Assembly: GCA_035529075.1 (NCBI GenBank) | Contig: DATKXK010000014.1 | Coordinates: 264,264-328,263 of the forward strand | From: Acidobacteriota bacterium | Lineage (GTDB): Bacteria; Zixibacteria; MSB-5A5; GN15; FEB-12 | Direction: 5' to 3' | Length of the DNA stretch: 64,000 bases | Shown: piece after piece, positions 27,579 to 44,009 of the stretch | Numbering within the stretch: the stretch's first letter is position 1 | How the letters are laid out: every line of letters starts with the position of its first letter | Program-made: the position numbers and the translations under genes | Notes under the pieces: model-generated | Seen by the model: the letters and a program-made list of their open reading frames with translations, nothing else | Database searches by the model: none | What the model was told of the DNA's origin: nothing

Positions 27579-27622
27579 CGCCGGAGAACTTGTCGAAAAC
27601 ACACACTTTCCCCGGAGGAAAT

Positions 27623-28525
27623 ATGCCGCGTTCATTGTGCCAGATTACCGACCTGACCGCTCAAGAGGTCCATGAAGTATTTGACCTCTGCCGCCGAATG
27701 AAATCCGGTGAAATAGCCCCGAAGCCATTGGCCGGCAGGTCGGTAGCCTGCATTTTCACCAAACCATCTCTGCGGACCCGTGTCTCCTTTGAGGTGGGTA
27801 TCAGCCAGCTTGGCGGTCATGCCATGATGGTGACCGATGCGGAAATCCAGCTTGGCAAGCGGGAGACGATTGCCGACGCCGCTCGGGTGCTGTCCCGGTA
27901 CCTCGGTCTGATCATGATCCGGACTTTCGAGCAGGCCGACGTTGAAGAGCTTGCCCGGTGGGCCGCCGTGCCGGTGGTCAACGGGCTTACCGACCTGGTA
28001 CATCCCTGCCAGATTCTGGGCGACTATTTCACCGTAATGGAGCACGTCCAGAAGAAAGATCGCTACAAAATAGCTTATCTGGGCGACGGGAACAACGTGG
28101 TCAACAGCTGGTTGAACCTTGCCTCACTGATCCCCATGGATCTGCGGATAGGTACCGACCGTGACTGCCAGCCCGCGGCCGAGTTCATTGAACGGGCCCG
28201 CCGAAATACCGACAGCCGTGTTCTCGTTACGGACGATCCTAAAGAAGCAGTGGCCGATGCCGATGTAGTTTATACGGATGTTTGGGCCTCCATGGGGCAG
28301 AAACATCTGGCGGAACAGAAGGAACGAAAACTACAGAGGTTTCAGGTAAATAGTTCTCTGATGAGTGGGGTGAATCCAAAGGCCATCGTGATGCACTGCC
28401 TGCCGGCCGAACGAGGCAGGGAGATAACCGACGAGGTTATGGATGGTCCCCAGTCGGTGGTCTTCGAAGAGGCGGAGAACAGGCTACACGTTCAGAAGGC
28501 CATTATGGCCTTTCTGCTGAAGTAG
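27623..28525 (+). CDS. argF: Ornithine carbamoyltransferase
   Basis: A 300-residue enzyme making citrulline from ornithine and carbamoyl phosphate in arginine synthesis. The carbamoyl-phosphate loop is KPSLRTRVSFE (the SLRTR rather than STRTR variant). HPCQILGD near 128, GDGNNVVNSW near 152, VYTDVWASMGQ near 215 and the ornithine/catalytic motif MHCLPAERG near 254 follow. The start at 27623 is fixed by the strong CGGAGGAA site; an upstream in-frame ATG at 27590 is rejected. No other arginine gene is in the window. Confidence 0.93.
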   Translation: MPRSLCQITDLTAQEVHEVFDLCRRMKSGEIAPKPLAGRSVACIFTKPSLRTRVSFEVGISQLGGHAMMVTDAEIQLGKRETIADAARVLSRYLGLIMIRTFEQADVEELARWAAVPVVNGLTDLVHPCQILGDYFTVMEHVQKKDRYKIAYLGDGNNVVNSWLNLASLIPMDLRIGTDRDCQPAAEFIERARRNTDSRVLVTDDPKEAVADADVVYTDVWASMGQKHLAEQKERKLQRFQVNSSLMSGVNPKAIVMHCLPAERGREITDEVMDGPQSVVFEEAENRLHVQKAIMAFLLK

Positions 28526-30761: not shown

Positions 30762-33506
30762 ATGGTGCTCAAGAGAATAATCCTTGTTGTTGCCTCTCTG
30801 ATTCTCTCCTCGGCTATCTCGATCAGGGCGGACGACATCGGTCTGCTTTCGTTGACCAGTCAGGCTCAGGTAGAACGGGCGGAAGCCATCCTGGGGCAGG
30901 CCTACGGCAAGGTCAGCGGTAAGTTCATTGTCGTCGTGTCCGAGGAAACGCGGCGAAGTCTTGCACGGGCCGGCATGCATCCCGAAATCGTGCTGCCGGG
31001 CGCAGATGTTTCCGATGCCTGCCTCGTACTCCGACCGTGCGCGCGGCCCGAAGTCTCCGGGGTCGATATTGACCGGTTCGGGCGAACGGTCGATCTCGGC
31101 CAGGGAATTCGCCTCGCGCAGATGAGCCGTGTGGCGGCCTCGACACTCTCCGCAACGACCGAGTATAAGGCCATTCCACTCTCGGATAACCCGGTCGGTT
31201 TTCACTTCAACCCTCCGACCGTCTCGCTGCCGGGATGGCGGCAGGAGCAGTATCCTGTTGATACCGTGGCGGACCTTGTGCAACTCGACTCCGTTTACGC
31301 GTACTGTACCAGGCTGGAGGATTACTACACACGGTACATTGGGACCGATTCGATAAACGCCGCCAGGGACTGGATGGTTCAGAAGTTCCTTGACTGGGGG
31401 TACACGGACATCTCGACGCCCGAGTTCGCGGTGCAGACCAACCTTTGCTACAACGTACACGTCGTCAAGCCCGGCTATGCTGAGCCCGACCGGGTGATTG
31501 TGATCGGTGCTCACTACGATGCGACAACCTACCCGCAGTCCTTACCGCCGTGGGAGTGCGCCCCGGGTGCCGATGACAACGCTTCCGGTACCGCGGCCGT
31601 ACTCGAGGCGGCCCGGATTCTTGCAGACATACCGCTAAGGAAAACGGTGGTCTTTATACCGTTCTCGGCTGAAGAGCAGGGTCTTGTCGGCTCCGGACTG
31701 GCGGCCCGGAACTTCCAGGCCGCGGGTACCGACATCGAGATGATGTATAACCTTGACATGATCGGCTATATTGAAGGTCCCTCGTTTGATCTCCAGTTGC
31801 TCGGAGGCAGGAACGAGGTGTACCGTGATCTGACGGCGGCTGCCGCCGCTCGCCTCACTCCGCTCACCGTATCTATTGTTCCCGTTTATGCTCTCTCGGA
31901 TCACTACCCGTTCTATCAGCGGGGTTACGATATCGTCTATGCACATGAAAGAGTGCAGACTCCAGGGTATCACACCGTGAATGACGTGTCGTCACTGCTC
32001 ACCTTTACCTTTATGACGGAGGCCGTCAGGATGAGCCTTGCTTCCGTGGCGATCGTGGCCGAGTCACCGTCGGCTCCCGCTGTGAGTCTCATCGACGTCG
32101 GCGATGGTCAGGCACTCGAGCTTCAATGGTCCGGCTGTCGTCCCGAGTATACTTACACGGTTTATCACGGGGACAGCCCGGGCGTCTACACTGATTCCGC
32201 GGTAGTTGCCGGGGGCGCCTGCTCCTACGTATGGAGCGGCCTGGCCGAGGGCGTCCCGGCTTACTTCGCCGTGGCGGCTGTTACCGCCGACGGCTACCGG
32301 TCCCTGGGGGCCGTTGAGTACTCTGAAACACCCCTGGTCTTTCCTCGTTCACCGAGAAGTCCGATGGCGGAGTCCGACTCCGCCCTCATAGAGCTTTCGT
32401 GGATGGAAAACACCGAGGTCGACTTCGCCTACTACAACGTCTACCGGCAGATTACAGGGCTGGGGAGTTTCGTACTATACAGGTCTCCGGTTGCCGAAAC
32501 GACTATGGTTGACACCAGCGTCATGGGGCAGATCGAATACAGCTACCGGATAACGGCGGTTGATCTGGACGGTAACGAATCAGCGCCCTCTGAAATTGTC
32601 AGCGCCTTTGCCGGTACCTTTGACGGCGGGGTGGTCATTGTCGACGCCTTTTCCGAGGAAAACCAGTACATCCCCGACCAGGCGGCGCAGGTGGCCTTTT
32701 TTGACACCATAATGGCCGACCTGCCGTATGGTCTGGTGGTGCTCGAGGAGATCAGCGATACTCTCAGCCGGTCCCAGGTCGGTCAGTATTCCTCGCTTAT
32801 CTGGATTGATGATGACCCGGGTCGCAAGACAATCGATGTGAACACTGACGTCCTGGCCTGGTATGCCGGATACAGCACCAATATGCTTGTCTCCGGCTAC
32901 TGGACGATCCAGAGCTGGTCGGATTCGCCGGTCCCCGTGGACCATATGCTGTATCAGGATTTCATGGTCTCCGGATACACGTACTGGGGGACGCCGGACT
33001 TTGTCGGTGCCTTCGGTCAGAACGGATGGCCGTCGGTCCAGATTGATCCCATCCGTGGGCTGACGGAGTGGCCGAACATTCCGGCCTTGCAGGTCAGGCC
33101 CGGAGCTACCGTTATCTACACGTACGACTCGTTTATGGATCTTGATTTTGAAGGGGAACCGGTGGGCGTGGCCTATGACGGGCCAACGGGGAAGCGCATT
33201 GCCCTGTCGTTTCCGATTTACTACCTGACACCGTCCTCGTCGCGGGCGCTGATGAGCAAGGTGATCGAGTACTTCGGTGAGGAGTTCGTGCCGGTCGACA
33301 ACGGAGACATCGACGGAGACGGCCGGGTGGATATCGGCGATCTCACTTTGATGATCGACTACATGTTCATGTCGAAGCTGCCGCTCTCCGACCCGAATGC
33401 CGCCGATATCGACTCTGACTGTGTTATCGACATTGGCGATCTTACAATGATGATCGCCTACTTGTTCATAGGCGGGGTTGATCTTCTCCCGGGCTGTGTC
33501 GAGTAG
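30762..33506 (+). CDS. Secreted M28 metallopeptidase with FN3 and dockerin modules (copy A)
   Basis: A 914-residue exported protein. It has a signal peptide (ILVVASLILSSAISIRA), an N-terminal domain of about 130 residues shared by the three copies (EAILGQAYGKVSGKFIVVVS), then the M28 aminopeptidase domain (about 185-430). Zinc ligands are visible: His251 in GAHYDATTY, Asp in GADDNASGT, the Glu pair in PFSAEEQGLVGS, Asp in YNLDMIGY and His in LSDHYPFY. Two fibronectin-III-like domains follow (about 440-525 and 530-620), a 225-residue conserved module beginning FDGGVVIVDAFSEENQYIPD, and a C-terminal dockerin-like pair of Ca-binding loops (DGDGRVDIGDLTLMIDYMF; DSDCVIDIGDLTMMIAYLF) ending GCVE. 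GAGGA precedes the ATG. It probably degrades external peptides. Confidence 0.85.
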   Translation: MVLKRIILVVASLILSSAISIRADDIGLLSLTSQAQVERAEAILGQAYGKVSGKFIVVVSEETRRSLARAGMHPEIVLPGADVSDACLVLRPCARPEVSGVDIDRFGRTVDLGQGIRLAQMSRVAASTLSATTEYKAIPLSDNPVGFHFNPPTVSLPGWRQEQYPVDTVADLVQLDSVYAYCTRLEDYYTRYIGTDSINAARDWMVQKFLDWGYTDISTPEFAVQTNLCYNVHVVKPGYAEPDRVIVIGAHYDATTYPQSLPPWECAPGADDNASGTAAVLEAARILADIPLRKTVVFIPFSAEEQGLVGSGLAARNFQAAGTDIEMMYNLDMIGYIEGPSFDLQLLGGRNEVYRDLTAAAAARLTPLTVSIVPVYALSDHYPFYQRGYDIVYAHERVQTPGYHTVNDVSSLLTFTFMTEAVRMSLASVAIVAESPSAPAVSLIDVGDGQALELQWSGCRPEYTYTVYHGDSPGVYTDSAVVAGGACSYVWSGLAEGVPAYFAVAAVTADGYRSLGAVEYSETPLVFPRSPRSPMAESDSALIELSWMENTEVDFAYYNVYRQITGLGSFVLYRSPVAETTMVDTSVMGQIEYSYRITAVDLDGNESAPSEIVSAFAGTFDGGVVIVDAFSEENQYIPDQAAQVAFFDTIMADLPYGLVVLEEISDTLSRSQVGQYSSLIWIDDDPGRKTIDVNTDVLAWYAGYSTNMLVSGYWTIQSWSDSPVPVDHMLYQDFMVSGYTYWGTPDFVGAFGQNGWPSVQIDPIRGLTEWPNIPALQVRPGATVIYTYDSFMDLDFEGEPVGVAYDGPTGKRIALSFPIYYLTPSSSRALMSKVIEYFGEEFVPVDNGDIDGDGRVDIGDLTLMIDYMFMSKLPLSDPNAADIDSDCVIDIGDLTMMIAYLFIGGVDLLPGCVE
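32538..33506 (+). repeat. Long direct repeat shared with copy B (first occurrence)
   Basis: The segment aligns with 35583-36551 at a constant offset of 3045 bases, without net insertion or deletion, through to the stop codon. In the 225-residue module starting FDGG I count about 27 amino-acid differences by eye. The N-terminal halves of the same two genes are clearly more diverged. Confidence 0.8.
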
Positions 33507-33655
33507 GCAGGATACAGGGTGCAGCCGTGTCGGTGAGGGCCGTTCCCGGCCCGGGCACGTGAGCGGGCGCAGTTGCTGCGCTTGAGTCGGTCGGTCGTAC
33601 CGTGACAAGAGACCGGAAGACAGGTTTGCACAAGGCGGGGCGTACTGTTTTTTTC

Positions 33656-33683
33656 TTGACAATCATAGAGGAAGGGCTAAATT
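33656..33683 (+). promoter_or_regulatory. Promoter of M28 copy B
   Basis: TTGACA (33656-33661), a 16-base spacer, TAAATT (33678-33683). The ATG at 33789 gives a leader of about 100 bases. The same boxes and spacing precede copy C. Confidence 0.65.
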
Positions 33684-33788
33684 AAATTGTATAGGAGTAC
33701 CTCTCATTATCCCGTGGGGCGCCAGACACGAGCGCGCGGTCAATTGAACCACTTGAGTAACATACTTCTTTGTCTTCAGGAGGATACT

Positions 33789-36551
33789 ATGGTTAGCACC
33801 AGGATGACATCTCTCATCGCCGTCCTCGTTTTCTCACTTGCCCAATTCGTCCAGGCGGATGACGTCGGTCTGGTCAGTCTCTCGAGTCAGGTGGAGGTCG
33901 AACAGGCGACGGCGATCCTCGGGCACGCATACGGAAAAGTAGGTGGCAAGTTCATTGTCGTAGTTTCCGAGACCTCTCGCGACGCTCTTGCGGACATCGG
34001 CATAGACGTTGAAAGCGTGCTGCCTGACGTTGACGTTGCGCTCACCTATCTTGTCCTCCCACCCGAGGTCAGGCGGGACGTCCCAGGGGTTCGCTTCGAG
34101 CAGTTCGGGCGCACGGTTGAGTTTCAGCATGGCGTCCGTCTCGTGGAAATGAGTCGCGTAGCGGCCTCGACTCTGGCCATGACGACCGCGTACAAGGTAA
34201 TCGCGTTGCAGGACAACCCGGTCTTTTTCCATTTCAAACCGCCGACGGTTGCATCGCCTGCGTGGCGGCTGGACGGCTATCCCGTCGATACGCTGGCCGG
34301 TTACGTGCTCGAGGATTCAGTCCAGGCCTATGACACGATCCTGGAGAATTTTTACACCCGTCACATACGGACGGATTCGATTCACCGTGCCCGCGACTGG
34401 ATGGTGCAGAAATTCCTTGACTGGGGGTACACCGACGTCACCACACCTTCGTTCCCTGCAACTGATTACTACGATCCATATGACAGTGTGCCCTGCTACA
34501 ACGTCAAAGTCGTCAAGCCGGGTTACGCTGAACCGGACCGCATCATAGTTATCGGAGCCCATTACGATGCGACAACGTACTATCAGGATGTCCCTCCCTG
34601 GGTACACGCTCCGGGGGCCGACGATAATGCCTCCGGCACAGCGGCCGTGTTGGAAGCTGCCCGTGTCCTGGCCGACGTTCCCCTCAGGAAAACGGTAGTG
34701 TTCATTCCGTTTTCCGCTGAGGAGGGGGGCCTTCACGGTTCGAGCAAGGAAGCCCGGGATTACCGCGCTGCCGGCAGCAACGTCGAAGTGATGATGAACT
34801 ACGACATGATCGGCTTCAGCGCGTATTCCTCGGATTTCGAGCTGCAGGGAGGCGACAATCTGGTGTACCGTGACGTGACGGCTGCCGCCGCCGTGCGTGT
34901 CACGGACCTGAACCCGCTGTTCTACGAAATCTCCGGCGGATCGGATCACTACGCCTTCTGGGAGCAGGGCTATGACATCGTCTGTGGCTCTGAACCCACC
35001 TTTACCCCCGGGTTCCATACCGAGAACGATAATTCGTCACTCCTGGACTTTGAGTACATGACTGAAGCGGTCAGGATGGCGACGGTTTCGGCTGCGATCA
35101 TAGCCGAATCACCGTCCCAACCGATCACGGCCCTCGTCGATGCCGGTGACGGTCAGTCTCTTAACATAGACTGGTTGAACTGTCAGCCGGACGTGTCCTA
35201 TGTAGTCTATCGCGGTGAAAGCCCGGGCGTCTATACTGACAGCGTTGAAGTCGGCACCGGCGTGTGCTCCTACGTCTGGACCGGACTGGCCGAGGGGATC
35301 CGAAGCTACTTTTTCGTGTCCGGAACGGCAGACAACGGCTACCCCACGCTGTCCGCCGTCGAAGTCTCGGAGGTGCCGCTGCTGTATCCGCGCGCTCCGC
35401 AGGGTCCCGTCGCCACGACGGACTCGGCCGTTGTAGACCTTTCCTGGGCCGAGAACGCCGAGGCTGATTTTGCCTATTATAACGTCTATCGGCGGATTGC
35501 CCAGGTAGGCGATTTCACGCTGTACAAGTCTGAAGTGACGGATCCGAGTCTGGCCGATACCAGCGTAGTAGGACACGTCCAGTACAGCTACCGGATAACG
35601 GCGGTCGATCTGGACGGTTACGAGTCAGCGCCCTCTGAGGTTGTCAGCGCGTATGCCGCCACCTTTGACGGCGGGCCGGTCATTGTCGACGCGTTCTCCA
35701 AAGAGAACCAGTACATCCCCGACCAAGTGGCACAGGTGGCCTTCTTTGATACTATAATGGCCGATCTGCCGTACGATCTGGTGGTGCTCGAGGAGATCAG
35801 CGATGCTCTCAACCGGTCCCAGGCCGGTCAGTATTCTTCGCTTATCTGGATTGATGATGACCCGGGTCGCAAGACAATCGACCTGAGCAGTGACGCCCTG
35901 ACCTGGTATGCAGGGTACAGCGGTAACATGCTCATCTCCGGCTACTGGACGATCCAGAGCTGGTCGGCTTCGCCGGTTCCCGTGGACCATACGCTGTATC
36001 AGGATTTCATGATCTCCGGATACACGTACTGGGGGTCGCCGGACTACGTCGGTGCCTTCGGTCAGAACGGATGGCCGTCGATCCAGATGGATCCCAGCCG
36101 TGGGCTGATGGAGTGGCCGAACATTCCGGCTCTGCAGGTCAGGCCCGGAGCTACCGTCATCTACACGTACGACTCGTTTATGGACCTTGATTTTGAAGGG
36201 GAACCGGTGGGCGTAGCCTATGACGGGCCGACGGGGAAGCGGATTGCCCTGTCGTTTCCGATGTACTACCTGACACCGGCCTCGTCGCAGGCGCTGATGA
36301 GCAAGGTGATCGAGTACTTTGGCGAGGCGTTCGTGCCGGCCGACAACGGCGATCTGAACGGCGACCAGGTGGTGGATATCGGCGATCTTACTTTGATGAT
36401 CGACTACCTGTTCATCTCGATGCAGCCTCTATCCGACCCGAATACTGCCGATATTAACTCTGACTGTGTTATCGACATTGGCGACCTGACGACTCTGATC
36501 GCATACCTGTTTATCAGCGAGATCGAGCTTCTTCCCGGTTGTGTAGAGTAG
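33789..36551 (+). CDS. Secreted M28 metallopeptidase with FN3 and dockerin modules (copy B)
   Basis: A 920-residue paralogue of the preceding gene with the same domain order: signal peptide (LIAVLVFSLAQFVQA), shared N-terminal domain, M28 catalytic domain with all metal ligands (IGAHYDATTY, GADDNASGT, FSAEEGGLHGS, NYDMIGF, GSDHYAFW), two FN3-like domains, the FDGG module, and a dockerin pair (NGDQVVDIGDLTLMIDYLF; NSDCVIDIGDLTTLIAYLF) ending GCVE. The start is ATG 33789, with CAGGAGGA at 33778-33785; an upstream in-frame start at 33687 lies within the leader. Its own promoter and a terminator (36590-36625) make it monocistronic. Confidence 0.85.
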   Translation: MVSTRMTSLIAVLVFSLAQFVQADDVGLVSLSSQVEVEQATAILGHAYGKVGGKFIVVVSETSRDALADIGIDVESVLPDVDVALTYLVLPPEVRRDVPGVRFEQFGRTVEFQHGVRLVEMSRVAASTLAMTTAYKVIALQDNPVFFHFKPPTVASPAWRLDGYPVDTLAGYVLEDSVQAYDTILENFYTRHIRTDSIHRARDWMVQKFLDWGYTDVTTPSFPATDYYDPYDSVPCYNVKVVKPGYAEPDRIIVIGAHYDATTYYQDVPPWVHAPGADDNASGTAAVLEAARVLADVPLRKTVVFIPFSAEEGGLHGSSKEARDYRAAGSNVEVMMNYDMIGFSAYSSDFELQGGDNLVYRDVTAAAAVRVTDLNPLFYEISGGSDHYAFWEQGYDIVCGSEPTFTPGFHTENDNSSLLDFEYMTEAVRMATVSAAIIAESPSQPITALVDAGDGQSLNIDWLNCQPDVSYVVYRGESPGVYTDSVEVGTGVCSYVWTGLAEGIRSYFFVSGTADNGYPTLSAVEVSEVPLLYPRAPQGPVATTDSAVVDLSWAENAEADFAYYNVYRRIAQVGDFTLYKSEVTDPSLADTSVVGHVQYSYRITAVDLDGYESAPSEVVSAYAATFDGGPVIVDAFSKENQYIPDQVAQVAFFDTIMADLPYDLVVLEEISDALNRSQAGQYSSLIWIDDDPGRKTIDLSSDALTWYAGYSGNMLISGYWTIQSWSASPVPVDHTLYQDFMISGYTYWGSPDYVGAFGQNGWPSIQMDPSRGLMEWPNIPALQVRPGATVIYTYDSFMDLDFEGEPVGVAYDGPTGKRIALSFPMYYLTPASSQALMSKVIEYFGEAFVPADNGDLNGDQVVDIGDLTLMIDYLFISMQPLSDPNTADINSDCVIDIGDLTTLIAYLFISEIELLPGCVE
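35583..36551 (+). repeat. Long direct repeat shared with copy A (second occurrence)
   Basis: Counterpart of 32538-33506; see that entry. The shared stretch covers the end of the second FN3 domain, the FDGG module and the dockerin. Confidence 0.8.
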
Positions 36552-36589
36552 TTGCGATCTCGGCGTTTTACTGAGCGGCAACCTGCCGC

Positions 36590-36625
36590 CCGATGGCTCG
36601 GCCCCGGCCGGGCCATCGGTCTTTT
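36590..36625 (+). terminator. Intrinsic terminator after M28 copy B
   Basis: CCGATGGCTCGGCC and GGCCGGGCCATCGG form a long stem with one T-G wobble and a tight CC-centred loop (36590-36619), followed by TCTTTT. Confidence 0.8.
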
Positions 36626-36682
36626 CCCCTGCCCCCAATTGCAAGCAGCCAACCAGACAGGGTAACGCCGCCATGTTTCTGC

Positions 36683-36710
36683 TTGACAGGCCGGCCCATC
36701 TTGTTAAATT
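36683..36710 (+). promoter_or_regulatory. Promoter of M28 copy C
   Basis: TTGACA (36683-36688), a 16-base spacer, TAAATT (36705-36710), identical in boxes and spacing to the promoter of copy B. The ATG at 36815 gives a leader of about 100 bases. Confidence 0.65.
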
Positions 36711-36736
36711 ATAAGAGGTTGCGTTACTTCGAATAT

Positions 36737-36772
36737 GGTCGGCAAACCGTTAAGCTTTACCGGCTGCCGACC
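36737..36772 (+). promoter_or_regulatory. Leader hairpin before M28 copy C
   Basis: GGTCGGCA (36737-36744) and TGCCGACC (36765-36772) form a perfect 8-bp stem with a 20-base loop inside the predicted 5' untranslated leader. No equivalent stem is obvious in the leader of copy B. Confidence 0.4.
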
Positions 36773-36814
36773 GTAACTGTCAATACGGAAATCTTTTGAG
36801 CCCCGGAGGTTGCT

Positions 36815-39568
36815 ATGACCGCTGGCAGCAAGCCACTGATCGCCTGTCTTGTCATACTTCTCTTGACCTCGTTCTCCGCAGCCGAGGACATCGGTCTTGT
36901 TTCAATCAACAGCCAGACCGACATGGAACAGGCCACCGAGATCATCGGACAGGCTTACGGCAAGACAAACAAGAAGTTTGTCGTCGTGCTTACCGAGGTT
37001 ATGCAGCAACGGCTGGCTGATGTCGGCATTGAAGTGCAGATCGTGCTGCCGGACGCGGATATCGAAAATAGTTACGTGGTCTTTCAGGCGTGCGCCCGCG
37101 GCCCGGCCATGGGGCTTGACCTGGATCAGTTGGGACGCACTGTCGAACTCGGCCTGGGCCTGCACCTGGCTCAGATGAGCCGGGTGGCGGCGTCGATGCT
37201 GTCCCAGGAGACGGGATACACGGCCATTCGGCTTACGGACCGGCCCATCGATTTCCACTATACGCCCCCGGTAGTTGCGGCGCCGGTTGCGCCGGAAGCG
37301 AGTTTCCCAACGGACACGCTCGTCAACCACGTAAGTCTGGACTCTGTTTTCGCCTTTGACACCAGGCTCGAGGACTTCTATACGCGCTACGTCTATACTG
37401 ATTCCATAGACCGCGCCCGGGACTGGATGGTTTCCAAATTCCTTAGTTGGGGCTATACGGATGTCACGGCGCCTTACTTCTGGTACTATGGCCCGTTGTG
37501 GAATGTCGTGGCTGTCAAGCCGGGTTACGCCGAACCTGAGAAGGTAATTGTGGTGGCGGCGCACTATGATGCGGTAACCTATGATCAGCCTCAGCCCACT
37601 GAAATTTACGCACCCGGGGCCGACGATAACGCGTCCGGAACCGCACTCGTTCTCGAACTGGCACGCGTCCTGGCCGATGTCCCGGTGCGGAAGACTATCA
37701 TGTTCGTCCCGGTCACGGCCGAGGAGATCGGTCTGGTCGGGTCCCGGCACATTGCCCAGGAACTGAAACAGGACGGAGTTGATGTCGAGGTCATGTACAA
37801 CGCCGACATGATCGGCTTCACCGGCGGACAGCCCTGGTATATCGACGTGGAGGGCGGAGACATCGAGATCTATCGCGACATCACCGGGGCGGCGGGCGAT
37901 CGGCTGACCTCGCTAATGCCCATTTTACTCCCCGTGATGTCAAGCAACTCGGATCACTCATCGTTCTATAACCAGGGATTCAGCGTCGTCCACGCCATTG
38001 AGACGAATTTCAACACGGCCGGCTGGCACACCATCCTGGATATTTCGTCCCGGCTGAATTTCCCGTACATGACTGACGTCGTCAAGATGATGCTGGCCTC
38101 GGTGCTTATCGTCGCCGAGTCGCCGGGACCACCGACAGTAGACAACATAGTTGATATTGGGGATGGTCAGTCGCTTGATATCCACTGGTCCCCCTGCTCC
38201 CCTGACGCATCGTATCGGATCTATCGAGGCGTGAGTCCCGGCGTGTATACCGATTCTGTCCTCGTCACTCCCGGTGCCTGTCATTATGAATGGACAGACC
38301 TCACCGAGGGCGTCCGCTATTACTTCCTCGCCATGGGCGAAGCTCCGAACGGGTACCGGTCGCTTTACGGTATCGAAGGTTCCGAAATGCCGCTTGTCTA
38401 TCCGAGGGCGCCGCTGAACCCTTACGTCGAGTCCGACTCTGCGGCCATACTTCTTTCGTGGGATGCAAACCGGGAAGCCGATTTTTCAGACTACAATGTG
38501 TATCGCAGGATGGATGACCTGAGCAGCTTCGTGCTGCTCCGGTCTTACGTGTCCGGCACCAGCATTGTCGACACCGCCGTTTTCGGACAGATTGAATACC
38601 ATTATCGGGTGACGGCCGTCGACCTCGACGGCCATGAATCCGCGCCGTCGGTTGCCGTGAGCGCGTACGCCGCTACCTTCGACGGGGGGCCGATGGTGGC
38701 CGACGCGTTTTCCAAAGAGAATCAGTACATTCCTTTACAGGCCGAGCAGGAAGCCTGGCTCGATACTGTCTTTGCCGGCGTTCCGCACGGTCTGGCCGTT
38801 CTGGAGGAGTCGAAGGATACGCTGACGCGATCACAGGTCGGCCCGTATTCCTCGCTGATCTGGATAGATGACGACCCCGCTCGAAAGACGATTGACGAGA
38901 GCATCGGCACGCTCAACTGGTTTTCCGGGTTCGGAACCAACCTGCTGATTTCGGGCTACTACACGATTCTCGGATGGTCCGGCTCTCCTGTTCCCTCGAG
39001 TCACATGCTGTACACCGATTTCATGATCTCCGGTTATAACTACTGGGGCTCTCCTGATTTCGTCGGTGCCCATGGTCAGGACGGCTGGCCGTCAGTCGAG
39101 ATTGACCCCGCTCGCGGCATTGATGAATGGCCGAATATCCCGGCCCTGCAGGTCAGGCCCGGAGCCACGGTTATCTATACTTACGACTCGTATATCGACT
39201 ACCCGGATTTTGAAGGGGAGCCGGTGGGCGTGGCCTATGACGGACCGACGGGCAAACGCATCGCCCTGTCGTTTCCGATCTACTACCTGACGCCGGCCTC
39301 CGCCCAGGCGCTTATCGCCAAGGCGCTCGACTACTTCGGAGAATCGTTTGTGCCGGCCGAGAACGGCGATTTGAATGCTGACGGCGTCGTCGACATTGCC
39401 GATCTGACTATAATGATCGACTATCTCTTCATATCCAAGCTGCCGTTGTCTGATCTCAACGCGGCAGATGTTAACGCTGACTGCATCGTCGATATTGGCG
39501 ACGTTACCTTGCTCATTGCCTACCTGTTCATGTCCGGCCCCGACCTGCTGCCCGGCTGCGTTGAGTAG
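36815..39568 (+). CDS. Secreted M28 metallopeptidase with FN3 and dockerin modules (copy C)
   Basis: A 917-residue third paralogue, more diverged than A and B are from each other. Signal peptide (LIACLVILLLTSFSAAEDI), N-terminal shared domain, M28 domain with ligands in AAHYDAVTY, GADDNASGT, VTAEEIGLVGS, YNADMIGF and NSDHSSFY, FN3-like domains, the module starting FDGGPMVADAFSKENQYIP, and a dockerin pair (NADGVVDIADLTIMIDYLF; NADCIVDIGDVTLLIAYLF) ending GCVE. CCGGAGG lies 7 bases before the ATG. A strong hairpin follows (39602-39635). Differences near the active-site rim (no tyrosine-rich loop of copies A and B) may mean a changed specificity. Confidence 0.85.
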   Translation: MTAGSKPLIACLVILLLTSFSAAEDIGLVSINSQTDMEQATEIIGQAYGKTNKKFVVVLTEVMQQRLADVGIEVQIVLPDADIENSYVVFQACARGPAMGLDLDQLGRTVELGLGLHLAQMSRVAASMLSQETGYTAIRLTDRPIDFHYTPPVVAAPVAPEASFPTDTLVNHVSLDSVFAFDTRLEDFYTRYVYTDSIDRARDWMVSKFLSWGYTDVTAPYFWYYGPLWNVVAVKPGYAEPEKVIVVAAHYDAVTYDQPQPTEIYAPGADDNASGTALVLELARVLADVPVRKTIMFVPVTAEEIGLVGSRHIAQELKQDGVDVEVMYNADMIGFTGGQPWYIDVEGGDIEIYRDITGAAGDRLTSLMPILLPVMSSNSDHSSFYNQGFSVVHAIETNFNTAGWHTILDISSRLNFPYMTDVVKMMLASVLIVAESPGPPTVDNIVDIGDGQSLDIHWSPCSPDASYRIYRGVSPGVYTDSVLVTPGACHYEWTDLTEGVRYYFLAMGEAPNGYRSLYGIEGSEMPLVYPRAPLNPYVESDSAAILLSWDANREADFSDYNVYRRMDDLSSFVLLRSYVSGTSIVDTAVFGQIEYHYRVTAVDLDGHESAPSVAVSAYAATFDGGPMVADAFSKENQYIPLQAEQEAWLDTVFAGVPHGLAVLEESKDTLTRSQVGPYSSLIWIDDDPARKTIDESIGTLNWFSGFGTNLLISGYYTILGWSGSPVPSSHMLYTDFMISGYNYWGSPDFVGAHGQDGWPSVEIDPARGIDEWPNIPALQVRPGATVIYTYDSYIDYPDFEGEPVGVAYDGPTGKRIALSFPIYYLTPASAQALIAKALDYFGESFVPAENGDLNADGVVDIADLTIMIDYLFISKLPLSDLNAADVNADCIVDIGDVTLLIAYLFMSGPDLLPGCVE

Positions 39569-39601: not shown

Positions 39602-39641
39602 GCGTGGCGGTCTGTCAGTTGTCAGACCGCCACGCTTGTTT
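39602..39641 (+). terminator. Intrinsic terminator after M28 copy C
   Basis: GCGTGGCGGTCTG (39602-39614) pairs perfectly with CAGACCGCCACGC (39623-39635) over 13 bp with an 8-base loop, followed by TTGTTT. Confidence 0.75.
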
Positions 39642-42431: not shown

Positions 42432-44009
42432 TTGTCAACAACCGCGATCAAGAAAAGTTCACTGGCTAAATCGGCCTCTCTCGTTTCCGCCGGGACCGCC
42501 GTCTCTCGGGTGCTTGGTCTTGTCCGGGAGCAGGTCATGGCCTACTTCTTCGGTGCCTCCCTGGCCACCGATGCTTTCATCACGGCCTTCCGTATTCCCA
42601 ACCTGCTCCGGGACATGTTTGCGGAGGGCGCGCTCTCGTCGGCTTTCATTCCGGTTTTCAAAGAGAAGTTGGTGAAGGGCTCGGACCGGGAGGCGTTTAC
42701 CCTGGCCAGCATCGTCGCCACCGCCGTTCTTCTGGTGGTCGGCGGTATCGTGCTGCTCGGCATCATAGCCACCCCGTTGATTATTTATATCTCCGCCAAC
42801 GGTTTTACCGCCGATCCGGTCAAGTTCGACCTGACCGTCAATCTCACCCGCTTGATGTTTGTGTATCTGCTGCTGGTGTCGCTGTCGGCCCTTGTCATGG
42901 GCATGCTCAACTCCTTCGGACGCTTCGGCGTGCCCGCCGTCGCCCCGGCGGTGTTCAATCTCGGCATGATCGTCTCCGTCCTAGTGCTGCACCGCTTCTT
43001 TGATGTTCCCATCTACTCTCTGGCGATCGGTGCCTTGCTCGGCGGCGTCGGCCAGCTTGCGATACAGCTGCCGCCGCTGATCAGAATCGGCTTCCGCTTT
43101 CGCTGGGTAGTGGCTTTTCTCGATGAGGGACTCAAGAAGGTGGTGCGGCTTTTCGCGCCCATGGTGGTCGGTATGTCCGCCGGCCGGGTTAATATAGTCG
43201 TCAACACGCTTCTGGCCTCGTTTCTCATGGAAGGCTCCATCTCGTACCTGAACTACTCCTATCGCCTGATGCACTTCCCACTCGGCGTGTTTGCGGTGGC
43301 CCTGGGAACGGTGACACTGCCGAGGGCATCCGAGATCGCCGCCCGGTCCGACATGAAGGAACTGGCCCGCTTGTACCGGGAAGCGCTCAGCCTGAACCTG
43401 CTGTTTATTCTGCCGTCGGCGGCCTTTCTGGCGCTGTTCGGACGCGACATCGTTGCCCTCATTTACCAGTGGGGCCAGTTCTCGTCCACCGACGCGGCCA
43501 ACACGGCCCTGGCTCTGCTGCACTACTCGTACGGTTTGATCGGCTTCGCTGCAGTCCGCGTCACCGCCCCGGTGTACTACGCCCTTGGCGATGCCCGGCT
43601 GCCGACACGGATTTCCGTCCTCTCGGTGCTCGTGAACATGGCCCTTTACTATCCGATGATCAAGCTGCTCGGTTTCGCGGGCTTGGCGGCTGCGACCTCC
43701 CTGGCCGCGTTGCTGAATTTCGGCCTGCTGCTGTATTACCTGCCGAAAAAGGGCGTGCCGGTCTCGATTCGCGATAGCCTTCTTGGTTTCGTCAAGCTGG
43801 CGGTGGCGGCCCATCTCGCGCTTTTTGCGGTCAGGATGTTGCCGGTTCAGTTTACCGAGAGCCTGCCGGAGGTCCCGGGGCGCATTCTGCACCTGATCAC
43901 CGTTCTCCTGGTTGGGGGGTTGTGCTATCTGTTCCTGTGTTATATACTGAGAGTAAAGGAACTCTCGCTGTTGAAAAAGGGGCTGTTCGGCGGAAGTGCC
44001 GAGCGCTGA
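42432..44009 (+). CDS. murJ: Lipid II flippase MurJ (MviN)
   Basis: A 525-residue polytopic membrane protein of the MOP superfamily, with about 14 helices, which flips the peptidoglycan precursor lipid II. Family motifs include SRVLGLVREQVMAYFFG near residue 24, ATDAFITAFRIPNLLRDMFAEGALS near 45 (a hallmark, read in two parts, ATDAFITAFRIPNLL and RDMFAEGALS) and a central MLNSFGRFGVPA. The first in-frame start is TTG at 42432, with no nearby ATG and no strong ribosome site. It overlaps comEC by 14 bases. The divergent rpsT promoter must share the 60-base gap. Confidence 0.92.
   Translation: MSTTAIKKSSLAKSASLVSAGTAVSRVLGLVREQVMAYFFGASLATDAFITAFRIPNLLRDMFAEGALSSAFIPVFKEKLVKGSDREAFTLASIVATAVLLVVGGIVLLGIIATPLIIYISANGFTADPVKFDLTVNLTRLMFVYLLLVSLSALVMGMLNSFGRFGVPAVAPAVFNLGMIVSVLVLHRFFDVPIYSLAIGALLGGVGQLAIQLPPLIRIGFRFRWVVAFLDEGLKKVVRLFAPMVVGMSAGRVNIVVNTLLASFLMEGSISYLNYSYRLMHFPLGVFAVALGTVTLPRASEIAARSDMKELARLYREALSLNLLFILPSAAFLALFGRDIVALIYQWGQFSSTDAANTALALLHYSYGLIGFAAVRVTAPVYYALGDARLPTRISVLSVLVNMALYYPMIKLLGFAGLAAATSLAALLNFGLLLYYLPKKGVPVSIRDSLLGFVKLAVAAHLALFAVRMLPVQFTESLPEVPGRILHLITVLLVGGLCYLFLCYILRVKELSLLKKGLFGGSAER

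Follow-up and report, generated by a model that had tools for sequence, protein, structure and literature searches.

Introduction

Bacteria offer precedents for gene conversion that is restricted to shared domains. In the release factors RF1 and RF2, conversion between anciently diverged paralogues has been limited, independently in two lineages, to the domain of shared function, and the specificity domains have been spared (PMC4530459). In Salmonella, the duplicate tuf genes undergo nonreciprocal exchange, with conversion effectively initiating uniformly along the gene (PMC5485169). The gingipains RgpA and Kgp of Porphyromonas gingivalis share with HagA C-terminal adhesin-domain repeats that are identical between the genes, and recombination of kgp has been described (PMC5266723). 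Finally, the enzymes of cellulosomes combine a catalytic head with a two-repeat C-terminal type I dockerin, the cognate setting being a genome that also encodes cohesins.

Here, we describe an array of three tandem genes, A, B, and C, for secreted M28 peptidases in a genome of the Zixiibacteriota, which resembles each of these systems in part. As in the tuf genes, the exchange between A and B is nonreciprocal, but whereas conversion of tuf effectively initiates uniformly along the gene (PMC5485169), the tracts in the array family are limited to the 3′ end. As in RF1 and RF2, conversion falls on a shared domain (PMC4530459); however, the release factors are essential translation factors, whereas the array consists of tandem secreted enzymes, and its 3′-end tracts recur in 5 genomes and in other tandem pairs. 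Like the array proteins, the gingipains are secreted peptidases with differing catalytic domains, and they carry a conserved C-terminal sorting domain (PMC5266723). Nevertheless, they belong to the C25 cysteine peptidases and carry cleaved-adhesin domains, whereas the metallopeptidases of the array belong to family M28, combine a GATase1-like module with a dockerin, and are encoded in tandem. The catalytic head, the two-repeat C-terminal dockerin, and the presence of cohesins in the same genome are shared with cellulosomal enzymes, which, however, are glycanases rather than peptidases. Among the papers searched, no link between dockerins and Zixibacteria was found, and gene conversion was mentioned together with dockerins in a single, unrelated one. 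What is new here is the recurrence of the conversion and its 3′ polarity.

Results

Architecture of the array

The window, that is, the whole stretch of 64,000 nucleotides analysed here (G000:C14:264264-328263), belongs to a 3.04-Mb Zixiibacteriota genome in 21 contigs, whose nearest named relative is CP070824. Genes A (30762..33506), B (33789..36551), and C (36815..39568) are arranged head-to-tail, and they and all their features listed below lie on the forward strand. Each is predicted to encode a secreted M28 peptidase with two beta-sandwich (FN3-like) domains, a GATase1-like module, here called the FDGG module, and a dockerin. A preliminary description of the locus had assigned to all three an M28 core, a pair of FN3 domains, and a dockerin. 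Peptidase_M28 and Dockerin_1 indeed score above the Pfam cut-off in each of the three proteins, and an AF2 model places two beta-sandwich domains between M28 and the FDGG module, but the Pfam scan did not score these domains as FN3. For gene B, the ATG at 33789, which is preceded by AGGAGG, is preferred over the TTG at 33687, where the open reading frame starts and which lies too early. An antisense open reading frame at 32580-33662 (360 aa) is broken in B and was read as a high-GC artefact. Genes B and C are each preceded by the same promoter-like TTGACA-N16-TAAATT (33656..33683 and 36683..36710) and followed by a terminator-like hairpin of 13 bp (36590..36619 and 39602..39635, respectively), which suggests that they may be transcribed separately; the promoter-like elements are consensus matches only, and for the one upstream of B the site count is about the shuffle mean.

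The catalytic domain (31452..31997 in A, 34509..35060 in B, and 37502..38098 in C) is closest in fold to the Vibrio/Aeromonas aminopeptidase, its best PDB match being the Vibrio enzyme 3b35 (TMt 0.84). Residues H251, D271, E304/E305, D332, and H404 are kept in every alignment row that covers them, including A, B, and C, which are accordingly predicted family M28 peptidases with intact metal ligands and catalytic Glu residues. The FDGG module (32619..33287, 35664..36332, and 38678..39352 in A, B, and C, respectively) is confidently predicted (pLDDT 92) to adopt a GATase1/ThuA-like fold, its best Foldseek matches being galactosidases of family GH42, ThuA-like proteins, and amidotransferases (E 1e-7 to 1e-4, TMq ~0.5). 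The modules of A, B, and C contain no cysteine at all and none is conserved across the family; with the catalytic cysteine missing, the module probably serves in binding or oligomerisation. The dockerins (33303..33464, 36348..36509, and 39365..39526) consist of two calcium-binding repeats that score above the family cut-off, as in Type I dockerins. Two cysteines, which in A are located in the dockerin loop (Cys 887; 33420-33422) and in the C-terminal tail (Cys 912; 33495-33497), co-vary, both being present in 45 alignment rows and neither in 4, leaving out a fifth row without the pair that is a truncated contig. They probably form a disulfide that closes the dockerin.

A bounded conversion tract in A and B

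It had been noted that the tails of A and B are far more alike than their catalytic halves, and this was confirmed almost to the base. From the FDGG motif on, exactly 27 of 225 residues differ, with no gaps, as against the earlier count by eye of about 27; 48 differences fall over residues 593-914 and 235 over residues 1-592. The same contrast is seen at synonymous sites. Over the first ~592-605 codons, pS between A and B is about 0.65, near saturation, whereas within a tract delimited by a two-state HMM (32538..33437 in A, codons 593-892, with the 5′ breakpoint at residue 593; 35583..36482 in B), synonymous divergence is about three-fold lower (pS 0.21, pN 0.07, dN/dS 0.29, NG86). In the last 22 codons (33438..33503 in A and 36483..36548 in B; pS 0.79), it is saturated again. 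Identical codons in the 3 HMM segments number 179/589 before the tract, 221/300 inside, and 5/22 after it. The shared region had been described as gap-free from 32538 or 35583 to the stop: it is indeed gap-free and starts at the HMM 5′ breakpoint, but since the 22 stop-proximal codons lie outside the tract, which ends at 33437/36482, "to the stop" was slightly too long.

The synonymous-codon scan gave Z = 9.2 for A and B, a value reached in none of 300 permutations and compared with a maximum of 4.7 among 150 between-genome control pairs. The A-C and B-C comparisons (Z 3.8-4.0) lie inside this control range, and a claim of conversion for them was dropped. Within the tract, A and B are separated by no outgroup. 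In 50-codon windows, dS across the low region ranges from 0.12 to 0.41, suggesting that several conversion events of differing ages contributed to a mosaic tract. Uniform synonymous divergence, named in the preliminary description as the mark of protein-level constraint alone, is absent; because synonymous divergence falls and then returns, with sharp edges, the 3′ region of A and B is a bounded, mosaic gene-conversion tract rather than a product of constraint on the protein. Reciprocal unequal crossing-over, from which whole-unit duplication or deletion and identical heads are expected, was rejected, as neither is seen. When the genome was searched for other FDGG modules that might have acted as donor, the only matches were A, B, and C themselves. 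The GC3 of the module minus that of the head averages 0.058 in converted pairs versus 0.004 (sd 0.035) in others, which, with three independent pairs only, is no more than suggestive of GC-biased conversion.

Recurrence in related genomes

Between genomes, the catalytic half and the module are 39.4% and 40.2% identical, respectively, with pS 0.77 for both; hence, the module is not intrinsically slow. Tracts were also found in tandem pairs of the same family in four other Zixiibacteriota genomes, namely, G012 (Z 15.0), G027 (9.0), G055 (7.1), and G033 (6.4). The sharpest is that of G012, in which residues 616-902 are 100% identical in protein, with 98% of codons identical and pS 0.024, and the heads preceding the tract are 49% identical, with pS 0.79. 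G027, a single 3.4-Mb contig, displays mosaic tracts at codons 441-506, 586-686, and 716-914, the last two of which are separated by an unconverted island (686-715). Conversion covers only the dockerin in G055 (834-905) and the last 120 codons in G033 (about 808-912). Within the family, tracts are present in 5 of 13 tandem versus 0 of 9 dispersed comparisons (one-sided p = 0.049).

Tandem M28 genes with other tails also carry 3′ tracts. G037 contains two such pairs, both ending in dockerins, and in the pair of G007 (G007:C3:43500-53500), synonymous identity is 99% over the last 365 residues, which comprise a T9SS-type tail as well. The window's own genome holds, in addition, a tandem pair of non-M28 genes with a 3′ tract (G000:C14:26326-31455), encoding proteins of ~829 aa that had no Pfam match and are 82-100% identical in the second half and 30-50% identical over most of the first. 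Each of the 9 strong tracts (Z ≥ 6) terminates no more than 22 codons before the stop, and none is located at the 5′ end; a weaker case is found in G027c (Z 4.9).

When a tree was built from the first 591 codons, the tandem copies of G000 (A and B), G012, G027, G019, G033, and G055 came out as sisters, with SH-aLRT values of 95-100 for these pairings, which argues against an import of the heads from elsewhere. Synteny of the locus extends to G033, G019, G012, G064, and G039 (window neighbours including argF, 25172, MurJ, 43996, and 46435), and in G033, too, three copies are enclosed by the same immediate neighbours as in the array. In the window, the flanking genes encode an ArgF-like carbamoyltransferase (27590-28525) and a MurJ-like protein (42432-44009); the synteny spans several genera, and in those checked the array numbers two or three copies. 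The history of the locus is either one of recurrent duplication or one of formerly gene-wide conversion that was later withdrawn to the tail.

Cohesins and surface anchoring

The earlier statement that no cohesin gene is visible is true of the window but not of the genome, which carries cohesin domains at four loci. There are seven cohesin matches (six above the Pfam cut-off; C13, C15, C17, and C18), alongside 21 dockerin matches. When open frames were matched, a T9SS-type sorting tail was found on each of the five cohesin-bearing proteins, four of them above the cut-off (two at C17 and one each at C18 and C13) and one borderline (C15). SprA is present, and the T9SS-type sorting domain has 42 matches elsewhere in the genome; A, B, and C gave no match to it and so do not class as T9SS cargo. 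The three cohesin proteins that were scanned have two Cohesin stretches each and a T9SS-type or FlgD-Ig tail, and unlike in the cellulosome, Pfam recognised no CBM in them, so that they do not qualify as cellulosome scaffoldins. Three adjacent genes at G000:C17:34000-44422 encode T9SS-type/FlgD-Ig tails, and two of them encode two cohesin domains each, making this region a candidate surface scaffold cluster. In the simplest model, cohesins displayed by the T9SS would hold the dockerin-bearing enzymes.

Discussion

We consider it highly probable, taking the proposal and its functional reading as a whole, that the shared 3′ tail has been subject to conversion among old tandem paralogues. A, B, and C would descend from a secreted M28 peptidase by ancient tandem duplication, and their signal peptides, N-terminal parts, and catalytic halves would have diverged first, past the reach of homologous recombination. 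Thereafter, the adjacent genes A and B would have undergone repeated ectopic conversion, by which the 3′ third, comprising the end of the second beta-sandwich domain, the GATase1-like module, and most of the dockerin, was copied from one to the other. The same process has operated independently, both in tandem pairs belonging to related genera and in tandem peptidases that carry other C-terminal attachment domains. As to function, the three enzymes would most likely be exported, and their two-repeat, probably disulfide-closed dockerins would dock on surface cohesin proteins placed by the T9SS. The common tail would tolerate exchange, whereas exchange of the heads would scramble substrate specificities, which we infer to differ among the three enzymes, and may be selected against.

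The preliminary description had offered two causes for the uneven divergence, and its interpretation is partly supported. Gene conversion is borne out by the sharp, edged drop in synonymous divergence and by its independent recurrence in other genomes. Selection for a common docking module combined with a diversifying catalytic part received no support: dN/dS within the A-B tract has an ordinary value, the catalytic halves are saturated at synonymous sites, and in between-genome comparisons the module changes as rapidly as the catalytic half.

The confinement of conversion to the tail might also have arisen without any selection, through a neutral ratchet in which conversion was once gene-wide, the heads were the first to drift, by chance, past the recombination threshold, and the tail alone still converts. 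This account shares the tract with the explanation that we prefer and differs only in the cause of confinement; it fits the data nearly as well as selection does, and we regard it as a serious contender, if somewhat short of an even chance. It is consistent with the ordinary dN/dS of the A-B tract, with the uniform initiation of conversion along Salmonella tuf (PMC5485169), and with the observation that the heads of the conserved-locus copies still group by genome. However, the retained end is the 3′ one in every strong tract, although module and head diverge equally between genomes, and this polarity is the strongest hint of more than a neutral ratchet. Given that the tandem control pairs of non-surface proteins are few (about a dozen), the polarity could have a mechanical cause. 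A broader proposal, which we consider rather doubtful, is that surface enzymes of Zixiibacteriota come as tandem sets with a variable head and a constant tail, and that conversion is selected to keep the tail, be it a dockerin or a T9SS tail, uniform within each genome so that all heads fit its own anchors.

It is improbable that the tails are old and ordinary and that the heads were replaced by divergent alleles through horizontal transfer. Such replacement would likewise yield similar tails and dissimilar heads, and as one genome per species was compared, donors may be unsampled; however, the tandem heads are each other's closest relatives in the genomes listed above, and the tracts are patchy, as illustrated by the unconverted island in G027. 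The collapse or chimerisation of a repeated 3′ part in short-read contigs is more improbable still: both the window genome and G012 were assembled into multiple contigs, but 79 of the 300 tract codons differ between A and B, and the single contig of G027 shows the same pattern. Protein-level constraint without recombination, which the high protein identity of the A and B modules (86%) might suggest, is hardly credible in view of the lowered synonymous divergence inside the tract and the equal divergence of module and head between genomes, in both protein and synonymous sites.

Returning to conversion among old tandem paralogues, the array represents a natural, repeated experiment on the diversification of tandem enzymes: on at least five occasions in one family, and always at the 3′ end, the attachment tail has been homogenised while the head escaped conversion. 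This leads to the prediction that the dockerins of a genome co-vary with its own cohesins. The locus is also a specific candidate for a system that, in an uncultured bacterium, would retain peptidases at the cell surface by means of cohesins anchored through the T9SS.
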